64,000 bases of DNA from Saccharothrix espanaensis DSM 44229. Lineage in GTDB: Bacteria > Actinomycetota > Actinomycetes > Mycobacteriales > Pseudonocardiaceae. Each line of letters opens with the position of its first letter. Positions within the stretch are counted from its first letter, which is position 1. The translations under genes and the position numbers were made by a program. The notes below the pieces were generated by a model that was given only the letters and a program-made list of their open reading frames with translations, ran no database searches and was not told the origin of the DNA. This document shows, one piece after another, positions 47,178-52,731 of this stretch. Where the stretch lies: positions 310,001 through 374,000 of the forward strand of contig NC_019673.1 in the NCBI RefSeq assembly GCF_000328705.1. Direction: 5' to 3'.

Positions 47178-47639
47178 ATGGGGTGCGTGAGGTTCACCAA
47201 GCCCCGTGACCTGCTCGCCGCCGGACTCGTCGCCGGCCTGCTGGCGCACCTGCTGCTCCGGCTCGCCTACGGCACGCTGCCGCCGCTGCCGACCTTCGCC
47301 GGGTTCACCCTGCTCGTCATAGCGGCGGTCGACCTGGTGCTGGCGTTCTCGCTGCGCGCCCGCATCCAGCGCAAGCCCGGCAGCGCGCCGGTCGAACCGT
47401 TGACCGCGGCGCGGGCGGTGGCGCTGGCCAAGGCGTCTTCGGTGCTCGGCGCGATCATGGCCGGCGCGTGGGCGGGTGTGCTGGTCTACGTGCTGCCGGT
47501 GCGCGGCGAGTTCGAGGCCGCCGACCACGACCTGGTCAGCGCGATCGTCGGAGTCGTCAGCGCGGTGGCCTTGATCGGTGCCGGCCTGTGGCTGGAGCAC
47601 TGCTGCAAGACCCCCGAAGATTCCCACCGGGACGGGTGA
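47178..47639 (+). CDS. DUF3180 membrane protein
   Basis: 153 residues (or 150 from a GTG at 47187). Four TM helices, with the family features RFTKPRDLLAAGLVAGLLAHLL, TAARAVALAKASSVLGAIMAG and the closing helix with GAGLWLEHCC. Corresponds to Rv3605c, which follows folK in mycobacteria. Function unknown. Confidence 0.88.
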   Translation: MGCVRFTKPRDLLAAGLVAGLLAHLLLRLAYGTLPPLPTFAGFTLLVIAAVDLVLAFSLRARIQRKPGSAPVEPLTAARAVALAKASSVLGAIMAGAWAGVLVYVLPVRGEFEAADHDLVSAIVGVVSAVALIGAGLWLEHCCKTPEDSHRDG

Positions 47640-47689
47640 ATACCGGTGCGGAGGTCTCAATCGGGTAACTGACCGGTACGGTAGACGCC

Positions 47690-49519
47690 ATGACCGGGCG
47701 AGGCACGTCGCAGGACGACGAGCAGCAAGATCACGGTCGTGGCTCCGGGCGACTACTGCTGGTAGCAGCATTGGCGCTCGCGCTGGGTGCCGCGGCGGTG
47801 CTGGTGCTGAGCGACAACGCCCGGTGGCTGAGACTGGCCGTCGTCGCCGCGCTGTGGGCCGCGCTGGTCGGCGCGTTCCTCGCCGCCCGGTACCGCCGCC
47901 AGGTCGCGGACAGCGCCGACGAGGTGGCCGACCTCCAGTCGGTGTACGAGCTGGAGCTGGAGCGCGAGGTCGCCGCCCGGCGCGAGTACGAGCTGGAGAT
48001 CGAGGCGGAGACCCGCAAGCGGGTGCAGGAAGAGGCCAAGGACGACCTGGAGGCGCTGCGCGGCGAGCTGCGCGCCCTGCGGGAGAACCTGGAGGCCCTG
48101 CTCGGCGGCGAGGTGCTGGTGGAACGCGTGGCGCTGCGCGCCGAGTCGACCCGGATGCGCGCCCTGTCCGACCAGTCCCGGGTGATGTCGGTGAGCGATC
48201 AGCGGATCATCACCGCCGGGCCGACCAAGACGACCGTGACCAAGACCGTCGAGAAGTCCGCGCCGGACCGCACGGAGCTGATCGAGCGGGTCGCCCACGA
48301 GGTCCCGCGCAAGGAGCAGGTTCGGCGTCCCGAACCCGTGCGCCCGGACCCGAGCAGGCGTGAACCGGCCCAGCCCGCGCGGCGCGAACCGGCACGGGCG
48401 GCGCAGCAGCGGCCGGCGGTGGCGGTGCGCGCGCCGGAGTCGACCGAGCGCGTCAACCGGTCGGAGTTGGCGGGGCGACTGACCCCGACGAGCCGACCGG
48501 AGCCGACCCGGCGCGTGGAGCCCACGCGCCCGGCCGCCGAGTCGGCCGACTTCTTCAGCGACGCGAAGGCGGCGGCCCGGCCGTCGACTACCGGTGCGGT
48601 GGGCAGCGGCGCGGTGCTCGGCGGTGGCCGTCCCGGTGCCCCGGGCGGTGCTCCCGGTGGCGGTCCCGGCGGGCCCGGTAGCGGTCCTGGCGGATCCGGT
48701 GGGTCCGGTGGCGGTTCCGGCGGGTCCGGTGGTGACGCGGCGCGTCCGGCCGGTCGGGCCGAGGCCGCGCAGCCGGCGGAACCGGTGGCGCGCCAGGCCG
48801 AGCCGTCCCGCACCGAGCACACGATCCAGCGGCGCAGCCGGGTCGCCGAGCGCACCGAGATGATCAGCCGCGACGCGCTGGCGGCCGACCAGTCCGTCCG
48901 AGGTCCGGTGGCGGAGCAGAGCCGGCCCGCGCCCGCCGAGCCGCCGCGCCGCGCCACGCCGACGGCCGCCGAACGCACCGGCGGCTTCCGCCCGGTGACC
49001 GGCGCGGAGCCGGTGCAGACCGGTCGACGCGCGGAGCAGAGCGGCTACACGGCGGTGCCCGCTGCGGGCAAGCGTGCCGAGCAGAGTGGCTACCACCCGG
49101 TGCCGGCAGCCGGTCAGCGTGGCGAGCAGAGCGGGCACTACCCGGTGCCGGCGGCGGGTCAGCGCGCTGAGCAGAGTGGCTACCACCCGGTGCCGGCGGG
49201 TGATCGGGCCGAGCAGGGCGGGTACGCGGCGGTGCCGGCGTCCGGGTCCGGCACGCGGGCGGCGGAGGAGAGCGGGTACCTGCCGGTGTCGGCGGAGCCG
49301 GCCGGGCGGTCGTCGGCCGAGTTGTCCGCCGGGCGGCGGGCCGCCGACGAGAGCGGCGGCGGCCGGCGGCGGGCCGAGGACCGGCCCGCGGGACGGCGCA
49401 GCGCCCCCGAACCCGAACCCGCCGGGGCCCACGCGGACGGCAAGTCGGTCAGCGAGCTGCTGGCGGCGTTCGGCGGTGGCGAGTCGCCGCGTCGGCGTCG
49501 GCGGCGCGGCGAGGACTGA
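47690..49519 (+). CDS. DUF6779-type membrane/coiled-coil protein with long repetitive tail
   Basis: 609 residues. Residues 20-65 hold two TM helices; residues 80-150 a charged coiled coil (VYELELEREVAARREYELE, then RELRALRENLEALL). After residue 170 the protein is disordered, with a glycine-rich block near residues 300-345 and 15-residue repeats (R-A-E-Q-S-G-Y-x-x-V-P) around 447-535. The end SVSELLAAFGGGESPRRRRRR is a conserved-looking basic motif. Rv3604c holds the equivalent place. A role in envelope or division is possible but not shown. Confidence 0.8.
   Translation: MTGRGTSQDDEQQDHGRGSGRLLLVAALALALGAAAVLVLSDNARWLRLAVVAALWAALVGAFLAARYRRQVADSADEVADLQSVYELELEREVAARREYELEIEAETRKRVQEEAKDDLEALRGELRALRENLEALLGGEVLVERVALRAESTRMRALSDQSRVMSVSDQRIITAGPTKTTVTKTVEKSAPDRTELIERVAHEVPRKEQVRRPEPVRPDPSRREPAQPARREPARAAQQRPAVAVRAPESTERVNRSELAGRLTPTSRPEPTRRVEPTRPAAESADFFSDAKAAARPSTTGAVGSGAVLGGGRPGAPGGAPGGGPGGPGSGPGGSGGSGGGSGGSGGDAARPAGRAEAAQPAEPVARQAEPSRTEHTIQRRSRVAERTEMISRDALAADQSVRGPVAEQSRPAPAEPPRRATPTAAERTGGFRPVTGAEPVQTGRRAEQSGYTAVPAAGKRAEQSGYHPVPAAGQRGEQSGHYPVPAAGQRAEQSGYHPVPAGDRAEQGGYAAVPASGSGTRAAEESGYLPVSAEPAGRSSAELSAGRRAADESGGGRRRAEDRPAGRRSAPEPEPAGAHADGKSVSELLAAFGGGESPRRRRRRGED
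49028..49300 (+). repeat. 45-bp coding repeats in the DUF6779 protein
   Basis: Five to six copies of a 15-residue unit with core RAEQSGYxxVPAAG; the copies near 49074-49200 are the most alike. Pattern looks like recent slippage in a disordered tail. Confidence 0.85.
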
Positions 49520-49539: not shown

Positions 49540-50613
49540 CTACTTGTCGATGTCGCCGACCACGACGGCGAACGACCCCAGCACGGCCGGCAGGTCGTCC
49601 ACCGCCGTGCCGGGCAGCAGCGCGGACAGCGCCTGCACGTTGTTGAACGACGGCGTGCGCAGCTTGAGCCGCCACGGCGTCTTCTCGCCGCGCGAGGCCA
49701 GGTGCACACCGGAGGTCCCGAGCGGTGCCTCGACCCGGGTGTACACCGACCCCTCCGGTGCCTTGATCGCCTTGGGCAGCCGCACGTTCACCGGCCCGCC
49801 GGGCAGCACGTCCAAGCACCGCTCGACCAGCCGCACGGACTGCCGCACCTCGTCCACCAGGCATCGGACCCGCGCCAGCGCGTCGCCCTCCGCCCGGACC
49901 ACCGGGGTCACGTCGAGGCCCCGGTAGCCGGGCAGCGGATCGTCCCGGCGCAGGTCGAAGTCCACTCCGGACGCCCGTCCGATCGGACCGGTCACCCCGT
50001 ACGCGAGCGCGGACTCCCGGCTCAGCACACCGATCCCGGCCAGTCCACCGGGAACCTCCCCGGTGTCCACAGTGGACAGTGCGGCGCGGACCCGGTCGGT
50101 CCACCCGGCCGGGACGTCCTCGCGCAGCCCGCCGATCCGGTTGAACATGAAGTGGATCCGGCCGCCCGACGCCTCCTCCAGCACGGCCTGCACGGCTTCC
50201 CGCCCGCGCGCGGCGGCCGGACCGGTCAGCGGCGCGAGGAAGACCAGGTGCGCCATGATCCGGTTCAGCTCGCACAGCACGGCCCGGAGGGTCTGCGCGC
50301 GGGCGGGGACGTCCATGCCGGTCATCCGCTCGACGGCGAGCGCGACGGCGAGTTCGTTGCAGAACGCGGCCAGCCAGTCGTGCCGGTTGGCCAGCGTCAG
50401 CACCTGCCGGTAGTCGCGGACCTCGAACAGCTTCTCCGCACCCCGGTGCAGGTGCCCGACGAGCGGTTCGGCGGCGGTGATGACCGCGTCGTCGCGGACG
50501 GTCAGCCGGAGCCGGTACGCGCCGTGCGCCGAGGGGTGCAGCGGGCCGAGGTCGACCACCCGGTCCACGCCCAGGTGACGTGCCCCGGCACCGACGCCAA
50601 CGGTGATCTCCAC
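49540..50613 (-). CDS. Orphan NuoD-like (NADH dehydrogenase 49-kDa subunit/NiFe-hydrogenase large chain fold) protein
   Basis: 357 residues, about 50-80 shorter than ordinary NuoD. Features: LGPLHPSAHGAYRLRL (quinone-site His-x-x-x-His loop), GHLHRGAEKLFE with R57, NRHDWLAAFCNELAVALAVER with R77, and the end RTPSFNNVQALSALLPG ... DLPAVLGSFAVVVGDID. In complex I the residue after the third of these Arg (R-L-D-Y) is the ubiquinone-binding Tyr; here it is Trp80. No other nuo gene is nearby. A SAM-dependent methyltransferase of the NDUFAF7/MidA family is encoded 1.1 kb upstream on the same strand. A small variant of complex I or a separate complex is possible. Confidence 0.82.
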   Translation of the reverse strand: MEITVGVGAGARHLGVDRVVDLGPLHPSAHGAYRLRLTVRDDAVITAAEPLVGHLHRGAEKLFEVRDYRQVLTLANRHDWLAAFCNELAVALAVERMTGMDVPARAQTLRAVLCELNRIMAHLVFLAPLTGPAAARGREAVQAVLEEASGGRIHFMFNRIGGLREDVPAGWTDRVRAALSTVDTGEVPGGLAGIGVLSRESALAYGVTGPIGRASGVDFDLRRDDPLPGYRGLDVTPVVRAEGDALARVRCLVDEVRQSVRLVERCLDVLPGGPVNVRLPKAIKAPEGSVYTRVEAPLGTSGVHLASRGEKTPWRLKLRTPSFNNVQALSALLPGTAVDDLPAVLGSFAVVVGDIDK

Positions 50614-50758
50614 CGCGTCATGCTCGCACGCCGGACGGTGGTGGGGCGGAGGGCCGCTCCTGGTGCCCGGCCGGGTCGAGGGGGGCCTGGCCGGGTTGGG
50701 GTGGATGGTCGGGTCGGGTCGGGTCGGGGTGCTGGGTGGTGGGTGGCTGGGTGGGGTG

Positions 50759-51205
50759 TCAGTCGGCGGTGATGGAGAACAGGAAGCAGCCGTGGGACAC
50801 GCTGCGCACTTGGATCTCGACCACGTTGGAGTTGTTCAGCAACTCGTCGATCTTCTCGTACAGCTCTTCGGGCTGCGCGATCCCGCCTTCGTAAATCCGG
50901 CCGTCGGCGTCGTACGCGCGCAAGGTCCGCTTGTTGTGCCGGAACGCCTCGGGCACATCGTGCACGGTGTCCGGGCCGTCGCACGGCAGCATGTGCACGA
51001 ACACCGGGCCCAGTTCCTCGTACGGACCGCGACCGGCGGTGGGCGTGTAGCGGAACAGCACGAGCGGTTCGCCGACCCCGGCCTTGCGCAGGCAGCACCG
51101 CAGCGGCGCGCCGGGCGACTCGCCCCGCAGCTCGTGGAACTCGTCCGTGCCGGCCAGCTTCCGGGCCCGTTCCACCACGTCGGTGGGCAACGCGTGAATC
51201 CTCAT
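50759..51205 (-). CDS. DUF1203 protein
   Basis: 148 residues. The DUF1203 pattern is clear: MRIHALPTDVVERARKLAG, PLRCCLRKAGVGEPLVLFRY, PYEELGPVFVHMLPC and the closing VVEIQVRSVSHGCFLFSI. A short PRCCLR and PVFVH core is conserved. Function unknown. Same strand as the NuoD-like gene. The gap to that gene (50614-50758) is low-complexity (GGTCG runs). Confidence 0.82.
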   Translation of the reverse strand: MRIHALPTDVVERARKLAGTDEFHELRGESPGAPLRCCLRKAGVGEPLVLFRYTPTAGRGPYEELGPVFVHMLPCDGPDTVHDVPEAFRHNKRTLRAYDADGRIYEGGIAQPEELYEKIDELLNNSNVVEIQVRSVSHGCFLFSITAD

Positions 51206-51283
51206 GCGATCAAGCCTGGTCGTCGGAGGCGGTGGTGGCCGGCGGTCTTCGGACGTGGCGGCGGGGGTGGTTCGGGCGGCGAG

Positions 51284-51742
51284 TCACCAGACGGGGCGGA
51301 TGCCGGCTGTGGAGGTGTGGTCCAGGTACGTGGTGAGGCTGTCGCGGAGGGCGGCGAACTCGGCGTCGCCGACGAGGGCGGCGAACTCGGCGTCCAGCTC
51401 CGCCCACAGCCGGTCGGCCAGGCGCAGGTAGTCGTGGCCCTTGGTGGTCAGCGCGAGCGCTTGCGCCCGGCGGTCGGTCGGGTGCGGCTCGCGCCGGACG
51501 TAGGCCCACTCGACCAGCTCCGCGACGGTCTTGCCGGCCGCCTGCTTCGACACGCCCAGGTGCGCCGCCAGGTCGACGGTCGTCGGGTGCTCGTTCGCGG
51601 CCAGGTACCGGAAGACGAAGCCGTGCGCTGGGCGCAGCGGCTCCAACCGGTGTTCGGCCAGGCGGTCGTGGAACCGGTCGGTCATCGCCCGGAACGTCCT
51701 GGCCAGCAGCATCGACGCGGGTTGCGCAGGGGGGTGGGGCAC
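51284..51742 (-). CDS. MarR-family regulator
   Basis: 152 residues from the GTG at 51740-51742. Winged helix TVDLAAHLGVSKQAAGKTVAELVEWAYVRREPHPTDRRAQ with the D-R wing typical of the family. The longer open frame upstream lies opposite to another gene's frame and is not credible. It starts six bases downstream of the stop of the methyltransferase gene on the same strand, so the two may be one transcript. Confidence 0.85.
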   Translation of the reverse strand: MPHPPAQPASMLLARTFRAMTDRFHDRLAEHRLEPLRPAHGFVFRYLAANEHPTTVDLAAHLGVSKQAAGKTVAELVEWAYVRREPHPTDRRAQALALTTKGHDYLRLADRLWAELDAEFAALVGDAEFAALRDSLTTYLDHTSTAGIRPVW

Positions 51743-51747
51743 GGTCG

Positions 51748-52731
51748 TCAGTGTGCAGGTGGACAACCTGGTTGGCCACTCTCGTGGTCGGGCCGGGGTC
51801 GCCACGGCGGCAGCGGCGGCAGCAGGTCCGCGACCGGGACGCCCACGCCGTGCAGCAGCCAGCCGAACGACCCGAGCCCGCCGACGGCGCGCAGCTCGGC
51901 CACGCGCGACGCCCGTGCCGCCGACTCCAGCCACGCCATGCCCGTTCCGCGTGTCGCTCGGCCCGTCGCGGGCTGACCGGTGGGCTGGTTGGTGGGGGTC
52001 AGGGCGGCCAGGGCGTCGCGTTGGGAGACCAGCACCCAGTCGCCGCCGGCGGCCTCGGCGCAGGCGTCCAGGGCCACGTGCGCGGTCAGGTCGCACGAGC
52101 CGTCGAACACCGGCGGCACGCGACGGCCCGCGCGGTACGCCGCGAACGTGCCCTCCGGGTACCGGCCGGCGGCCCGGTCCGCGCGCAGGTGCCCGTAGTC
52201 GACGGCCAGCGCCGCGCCGTGCACCCGGCCCACGGCGTCCGCCCACGCCCGGTCCCGGGGCGCGCCGATCTCGGCCCGCCGACCGGGCTCCAGCGGCCAC
52301 CACCTGGTCAGCCACGGGTCGTCGTGCGGTCCCACGACCAGCGGGCACGGGATCGCGTCCAGCCACTCGTGGCCGACCAGCAGCCCGTGCACGGCGGCCG
52401 GCAGGTCGCGCGTCCACTCGACACCGGGCAGCGCGCGGGCGGGCCCCACGTCCACGGCGGTCACGTGCAGCCGGTCGGCGAGCCGCGCGGGGGCCAGCGC
52501 GCGGATCGCGGCGGACAGCTCGCCGCCGCCCGCGCCCACGTCGACGAAGTCCACCCGGGCCGGCCGGCCCAGCGCGAAATCCACCCGATCGAGCAGCACC
52601 AGGAGCGCTTCGGCCAGCTCAGGGCCGATCAGCGGGGCGGTGCGGAAGTGGTCGGCCGGCACCGCGCCCCGGCTGAAGAAGCCCTCCGGGCCGTAGAGCG
52701 CGGTGCGCCACGCCGATTCCGAGTCCCGCAT
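51748..52731 (-). CDS. MidA/NDUFAF7-type SAM-dependent protein-arginine methyltransferase
   Basis: 327 residues. The family start YGPEGFFSRGAVPADHFRTAPLIGPELAEAL, the SAM motif VDFVDVGAGGGELSAAI and LVGHEWLDAIPCPLV place it in the SAM-MT 28 (MidA) family; the human member NDUFAF7 dimethylates Arg85 of NDUFS2 (NuoD homologue) in complex I assembly. Near its C-terminus, residues 255-280 are Thr/Pro/Gly-rich and probably a loop. It lies close to the orphan NuoD-like gene whose equivalent arginine (R57) is kept. Confidence 0.85.
   Translation of the reverse strand: MRDSESAWRTALYGPEGFFSRGAVPADHFRTAPLIGPELAEALLVLLDRVDFALGRPARVDFVDVGAGGGELSAAIRALAPARLADRLHVTAVDVGPARALPGVEWTRDLPAAVHGLLVGHEWLDAIPCPLVVGPHDDPWLTRWWPLEPGRRAEIGAPRDRAWADAVGRVHGAALAVDYGHLRADRAAGRYPEGTFAAYRAGRRVPPVFDGSCDLTAHVALDACAEAAGGDWVLVSQRDALAALTPTNQPTGQPATGRATRGTGMAWLESAARASRVAELRAVGGLGSFGWLLHGVGVPVADLLPPLPPWRPRPDHESGQPGCPPAH

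Follow-up and report, generated by a model that had tools for sequence, protein, structure and literature searches.

A putative second complex I lineage and its predicted arginine methyltransferase in Saccharothrix espanaensis

The nuoD2-midA locus

The stretch analysed here (the window, 64,000 nucleotides; C1:310001-374000 of the 9.36 Mb chromosome of Saccharothrix espanaensis DSM 44229) contains two genes, nuoD2 and midA (Table 1), encoding a second NuoD, the 49-kDa-type subunit of complex I, and a methyltransferase of the NDUFAF7/MidA type. The initial annotation of the window had named a NuoD-like and a MidA-family open reading frame (ORF) on the same strand, and both assignments are confirmed by Pfam, with NuoD2 matching PF00346 (E=1.5e-57, 195.2 bits, above the cut-off of 24) and MidA matching PF02636 (E=5.9e-14, 52.6 bits, above the cut-off of 23.3). 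Neither is a chance ORF, because NuoD of the same type is found in 98 of 246 genomes of the class. NuoD2 falls under the NCBIfam NuoD equivalog cut-offs (best score 295.9 versus 360 bits, and 285.7 versus 459.35 bits for TIGR01962), and MidA, with its 52.6 bits against PF02636, is divergent in sequence from NDUFAF7/MidA. The 50 matches listed for a structural model of NuoD2 (predicted local distance difference test, pLDDT, 90.6) are all complex I, respirasome or NDH chains (TMq 0.78-0.86), the best ranked being a complex I 49-kDa chain (TMq 0.85), and the six best fold matches of the MidA model (pLDDT 89.4) are COG1565/MidA chains (TMq 0.67-0.71).

No second copy of subunits B, D, F or H (PF01058, PF00346, PF01512, PF00146) was found in the window, and the annotated lack of other nuo genes nearby stands for these four, the remaining subunits not having been searched for window-wide. 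All other matches of the genome to these families lie at 8.80-8.85 Mb, where the main nuo cluster (near 8.85 Mb) encodes a further NuoD, and the window MidA is the only PF02636 match in the whole genome.

Table 1. Features of the nuoD2-midA locus, in window positions
Feature	Position	Strand	Description
nuoD2	49540..50613	-	D (49-kDa type) subunit, 357 aa, GTG start; probably of a second complex I lineage without the module for reduced nicotinamide adenine dinucleotide (NADH)
R57 codon, HRGAEK	50443..50445	-	corresponds to Arg85 of human NDUFS2 and is the predicted target of MidA; assigned by homology (PMC3829151)
R77 codon	50383..50385	-	invariant residue, 20 residues past R57
W80 codon (RHDW)	50374..50376	-	place of the quinone-binding Tyr
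midA	51748..52731	-	NDUFAF7/MidA-type methyltransferase, 327 aa, ATG start
DUF1203 gene	50759..51205	-	between nuoD2 and midA; not counted in the system
MarR-type regulator gene	51287..51742	-	between nuoD2 and midA; start approximate

Residues of NuoD2 and the Arg/Thr swap

The residues singled out by the initial annotation, R57, R77 and W80, are as it described them and proved to be family-wide, being kept in all rows of an alignment of class NuoD2 sequences (50 rows from 48 genomes, G123 and G196 entering twice each). At the quinone site Trp is found in 50/50 NuoD2 rows versus Tyr in 21/21 rows of main NuoD (21 genomes, with G118 and G026 among them lacking NuoD2), so that the quinone-binding Tyr of the RxDY motif is absent from every NuoD2 row. 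Trp also occurs in 80/80 of a set of named loci, a figure biased by the patterns used to pick them, which included RHDW and EKLFE. The possible quinone independence suggested by the initial annotation is not supported: of the HPSxHG histidines, the first is kept in 49/50 rows and the second in 46/50, and full operons of the lineage have the Trp as well. In a tree of 111 D sequences the 84 Trp-type sequences form one clade (support 0.956), within which the 50 class NuoD2 rows form a nested clade of their own (0.99), and the Tyr-to-Trp change runs throughout the Trp-type lineage examined, full operons included. A metal site like that of the [NiFe] hydrogenase large subunit, which has Cys ligands close to either end, was rejected, as neither HRGAEK nor the C-terminal VGDIDK of NuoD2 contains a Cys. 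Elsewhere, three genomes of family f85 (G366, at C1:528111 and C1:1012134, G396 and G415) each encode two D subunits (E 1e-93 to 1e-98), and both of those fetched from G366 carry Arg and Tyr.

At the predicted target place, Arg (HRGAEK or HRSAEK) occupies 50/50 NuoD2 rows versus Thr (HTGIEK) in 21/21 main NuoD, and the facing NuoB residue is Thr in 17/17 NuoB2 versus Arg (AGRV) in the main NuoB of 7/7 genomes. The NuoB2 alignment omits L120, where no NuoB2 was found, and L121, which is truncated by the end of its contig; the main NuoB comparison includes one genome without NuoD2 (G012), with L105 duplicating L099 and L096 yielding no row. The two arrangements coexist in one genome. The available portion of PMC8042128 describes an intersubunit residue switch, with Arg on D and Thr on B in Yarrowia and Thr on D and Arg on B in Thermus, in which the switched side chains fill one space near cluster N2, and the swap observed here is, on the alignments, this same switch. 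The swap suggests that NuoD2 fits NuoB2. Human NDUFAF7 symmetrically dimethylates NDUFS2 Arg85 early, according to the text available from PMC3829151, and the swap places this residue on NuoD2 and not on main NuoD, with the window genome itself presenting an Arg to MidA on NuoD2 and a Thr on its main NuoD. A role for MidA in the main complex I was rejected, given the Thr in 21/21 main NuoD and the presence of MidA in 96/246 genomes versus some NuoD in 231/246. Arg on D and Thr on B are also found in operons of other classes (L320, L321, L331, L324, L325 and L329, the NuoB of L325 having been read by eye). As L326 and L327, which are Tyr-type operons, show the same pairing, the swap marks a common state and not the NuoD2 lineage alone.

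Linkage of NuoD2 and MidA across genomes

The survey panel of 246 class genomes, which includes G067 and G096 (76% and 60% complete), was searched with the window NuoD2 and MidA proteins, MidA being sought with this single query sequence at E<=1e-5. NuoD2 was found in 98 genomes and MidA in 96, with both in 89, NuoD2 alone in nine, MidA alone in seven and neither in 141, as expected of the co-occurrence that the initial annotation had proposed as a check. PF02636 failed to confirm two of the seven MidA-only genomes (G078 and G166), and their removal for the comparison with NuoB2 leaves 94 MidA genomes, 89 with NuoD2. The two genes lie within 12 kb of each other in 82/82 same-contig pairs (64 on one strand, 18 on opposite strands) and on separate contigs in six of the 89 genomes, whilst G020 has no MidA row among the matches listed, yet a cut MidA ORF on its NuoD2 contig. 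The matches are 30 bp apart in G032 (1.7 Mb, 100% complete), and MidA is present in 64/66 named loci with full flanks and in 71/80 of all named loci. The pairing noted by the initial annotation holds, but the two genes are not direct neighbours in the window itself, where the DUF1203 and MarR genes intervene. MidA does not follow main nuo: NuoD is matched in 231/246 genomes and NuoD2 is the sole match in eight, leaving ~223 with another NuoD versus 96 with MidA.

Outside the class, strong D matches (E<=1.6e-103) are accompanied by MidA in 59/94 genomes, and MidA by a strong D in 59/74. Of 34 same-contig pairs, 32 lie within 10 kb, 15 of these being 7.5-8.9 kb apart on one strand, which is the spacing at the end of the nuo operon that closes with midA, and a further 25 pairs are on different contigs. 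G500, which belongs to another class and has no strong NuoD2, contains a MidA match of class-level strength (C21:966026-966970, E=7.5e-129), on a contig that may be contamination.

Several observations weigh against an obligate tie. Nine class NuoD2 genomes have no MidA match, and whilst assembly gaps could explain G015 and G170, in six a DUF2520 neighbour leaves no room for MidA, and G203 shows a 1.2 kb gap with no match in it. Outside the class MidA is unmatched in 35/94 strong-D genomes, and a strong D is missing from 15/74 MidA genomes, although several of the latter (G247, G262 and G276 among them) fall just under the threshold. The clearest proof would have been for genomes without MidA to have lost the arginine, but this is not seen, with Arg kept in 9/9 such class genomes and in 20/20 MidA-less D fetched outside the class (15 of them with Trp), and the E. 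coli arginine at this place is present but not dimethylated in the account given by the available part of PMC8042128. The arginine therefore does not require MidA or methylation, and MidA may improve rather than enable.

The neighbourhood of the pair offers another explanation, in which nuoD2 and midA are hitch-hikers in a conserved folK-panC region and the substrate of MidA is some unrelated protein. One flank of the pair carries FolK-like, DUF3180 and DUF6779 genes and the other PrsW-like, DUF2520, panC and PanD-like genes, the FolK and PanD labels being presumptive. The recurrence of FolK-like, DUF3180, DUF2520 and PanC genes around the pair, the 18/82 pairs on opposite strands and the existence of MidA-less NuoD2 loci agree with such a passive association. 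It would account poorly for the joint presence and absence of the two genes over 246 genomes, 141 with neither (by a Fisher test that ignores relatedness of the genomes), for the midA that closes a nuo operon in the different neighbourhoods of L320, L321 and L331, or for the known target residue lying on NuoD2 and not on main NuoD, and we consider it improbable.

The DUF3180 and DUF6779 genes (window 47178-49519) adjoin nuoD2 and were found in 41/80 and 12/80 named loci, some of which are truncated. The DUF1203 gene is present in 7/80 named loci (Saccharothrix, Lentzea) and the MarR gene in 2/80, on which basis both were rejected as parts of the system and appear to be lineage-specific inserts. 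The nearest named relatives, Saccharothrix, have NuoD2 89-90% identical to that of the window.

A second NuoB-NuoC-NuoI set

The initial annotation had termed the NuoD-like protein an orphan, a description that is not supported: NuoD2 genomes carry a second NuoB, located away from nuoD2 and mostly accompanied by NuoC- and NuoI-like genes, and operons of the lineage hold all 11 subunits. The strong NuoB2 set, defined as the best 91 genomes of the NuoB search, includes 87 of the 98 NuoD2 genomes, and its four members without NuoD2 (G004, G014, G042, G108) are 72-93% complete. Nine of the 11 NuoD2 genomes outside this set show two or three NuoB matches, of which only those of G116 were inspected, and the G033 sequence breaks off where its contig ends. 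A counterexample is provided by G190, in which the NuoD2-MidA pair is present but the NuoB search yielded no NuoB2.

The genes for NuoB2, NuoC2 and NuoI2 are contiguous in the window genome at ~C1:8803791-8805236 (-), 39 kb from main nuoH. Among 19 stretches fetched around NuoB2 candidates, NuoC2 is present in 18 and NuoI2 in 17, with both named by Pfam/NCBIfam in the window genome and in G032, where NuoB2, NuoC2 and NuoI2 are divergent beside korA-korB. The four N2 cysteines (C21, C22, C88, C118) are invariant across the 17 NuoB2, and NuoI2 matches a 4Fe-4S dicluster domain.

These cysteines bear on whether the second set is a decaying relic, whose core has become inactive and has lost quinone reduction. 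Decay would be in keeping with the Trp at the quinone Tyr place in 50/50 rows, the second HPSxHG His lost in 4/50 and the presence of only one NuoH in the window genome. Such decay is nevertheless highly improbable in light of the invariant cysteines, of the small and complete G032, which keeps D2 and MidA 30 bp apart together with B2-C2-I2, and of the full operons of the lineage, which have the same Trp.

In 46/47 same-contig pairs KorA is encoded on the strand opposite to NuoB2 and no more than 10 kb away, the exception being the window genome at 23.9 kb; KorA rows are available for at least 61/91 NuoB2 genomes among the matches listed (47 on the same contig, 14 on a different contig). The specificity of this nearness is called into question by KorA exceeding the cut-off in 190/246 genomes and failing to do so in several NuoD2 genomes, including G128, and by its position ~20-34 kb from main NuoB in the NuoD2-free genomes G012, G038, G056, G088 and G100 (distances read by eye from result rows), which indicates that the NuoB2-KorA nearness is partly regional. 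KorAB was accordingly rejected as an obligate partner, being widespread and below the cut-off in several NuoD2 genomes.

Relatives with fuller gene sets

The genome G128 (100% complete) has one NuoB (PF01058), one NuoH (PF00146) and NuoD2 as its sole D match, with no NuoF (PF01512) and no other NuoD found in the genome search. Its nuo cluster contains A, B, C, H, I, J, K, L, M and N, with D alone missing, and the NuoD2 on another contig would supply it. A cluster beside KorAB in G018 comprises A2, B2, C2, H2, I2 and J2-N2; a PF00329 NuoC-like gene is situated inside this nuo2-type cluster at L109:9866-10435 (+).

Twelve loci were fetched from other classes (L320-L331). L320, L321 and L331 (3/12) each hold one operon, A-B-C-D-H-I-J-K-L-M-N-midA, whereas in L324, L325 and L329 no midA adjoins the operon, L322, L323 and L330 have D and MidA together with no other nuo genes in the stretch, and L326-L328 are Tyr-type operons without MidA. 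The L325 stretch ends before nuoN, and as those fetched for L324 and L325 end at or before this gene, the absence of midA there is taken from the genome-wide MidA search. Of the three genomes to which L324, L325 and L329 belong, G254 and G334 lack any MidA match and G408 has MidA on another contig. No match to main NuoF or NuoG was found in the L320-L331 stretches, in which NuoE was not searched for. On the simplest reading of these arrangements, D and midA would have left an ancestral operon together.

Membrane-arm genes are present in G128, G018 and the operons L320, L321 and L331. The window genome has only one NuoH (PF00146), second copies of A and J-N not having been searched for, and this single NuoH suggests a shared membrane arm. 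It could also be taken to mean that NuoD2 acts as a spare subunit, taking the place of NuoD in the NADH-fed complex I, with MidA serving the hybrid, as one NuoH is all that the window genome and a further 10 NuoD2 genomes (among 42 searched, also with main NuoB) have, so that no second whole complex is encoded there, and the accessible part of a published comment proposes hybrid machinery for the nuo and nuo2 clusters of Streptomyces (PMC9239103). In such a hybrid, however, the Arg of NuoD2 would face the Arg of main NuoB, and every set examined has one arginine. Together with the matching NuoB2 that tracks NuoD2, and with the retention of NuoD2 by G128 without NuoF or another NuoD, this makes a substitute D subunit unlikely.

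Proposed mechanism

Taking together the linkage of D2 and MidA, the tracking NuoB2 with its NuoC- and NuoI-like neighbours, the intact operon of relatives, the nesting of NuoD2 and the Arg/Thr swap, we consider it probable (at roughly 0.75) that NuoD2 is the D subunit of a second complex I lineage without the NADH module, its genes scattered in this genome, in which MidA is predicted to dimethylate Arg57 over cluster N2 of the likely partner NuoB2. By analogy with NDUFAF7, MidA would methylate R57 of NuoD2, and would do so early, with the dimethyl-Arg57 perhaps helping D2 to dock on B2 and tuning N2. Reduced ferredoxin would be the electron donor, with KorAB (2-oxoacid:ferredoxin oxidoreductase) a candidate source, and electrons would pass from ferredoxin through the NuoI2 clusters to N2 of NuoB2 and on to quinone at the D2/B2 site. 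In genomes with a single NuoH, such as the window genome, the B2-C2-D2-I2 core may borrow the main membrane arm. An extension that we regard as speculative, and rather doubtful, is that two rival cores share one arm, the main B-C-D-I fed by NADH (Thr on D, Arg on B) and B2-C2-D2-I2 fed by ferredoxin (dimethyl-Arg on D, Thr on B), with the MidA mark sorting D2 to B2 and away from main B, and the electron donor being swapped by core exchange.

Comparison with known systems

Literature searches returned no description of the NuoD2-MidA pair, with an earlier mention possible in a 2018 MidA paper (5ztz). As far as these searches show, three findings are new: the missing D and its methylase are assigned to a locus far away, a cluster of this type includes a NuoC, and the two switch states share one genome. 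In the part of PMC8042128 available, the effect of methylation near N2 is not separable from that of arginine loss; here Thr/Arg and Arg/Thr cores lie side by side with a methylase gene tied to one of them, making the role of N2-adjacent methylation testable by one deletion. The arrangement also suggests that aerobic actinobacteria feed low-potential electrons into respiration via a second complex I.

The closest parallel is the 11-subunit complex I-like enzyme without NuoEFG, for example in Desulfitobacterium, for which ferredoxin is the proposed donor in the available portion of PMC11238625. The present system resembles it in the B, C, D and I core, in the A, H and J-N subunits of relatives and in the NADH module not being found, and differs in that D and MidA of the class lie away from the other subunits, in the Trp at the quinone Tyr, in the linked MidA, and in the window genome lacking a second NuoH. 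The Streptomyces nuo2 cluster (SCO4599-4608) is stated to be of unclear function, and to be without C, D, E, F, G and L, in the available text of PMC9239103. The G018 cluster (Streptomyces-like by group) is similar in its A2, B2, C2, H2, I2 and J2-N2 beside KorAB; unlike nuo2 as published, it has a PF00329 NuoC and a NuoL-like gene, the comparison being with G018 and not with S. coelicolor. The D missing from the nuo2-type cluster would be NuoD2 at the midA locus, which offers this cluster its missing subunit and a likely ferredoxin-fed role.

With respect to NDUFAF7/MidA and NDUFS2 Arg85, the likeness lies in the COG1565/MidA fold and in the Arg of HRGxEK, and the difference in a divergent sequence and in the prediction that MidA serves only the second of two NuoD in the cell. 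The main actinobacterial NuoD and NuoB examined are in the state of Thermus thermophilus Nqo4/Nqo6, as that switch is set out in the available part of PMC8042128, but unlike in T. thermophilus both states of the switch are found here within one genome.

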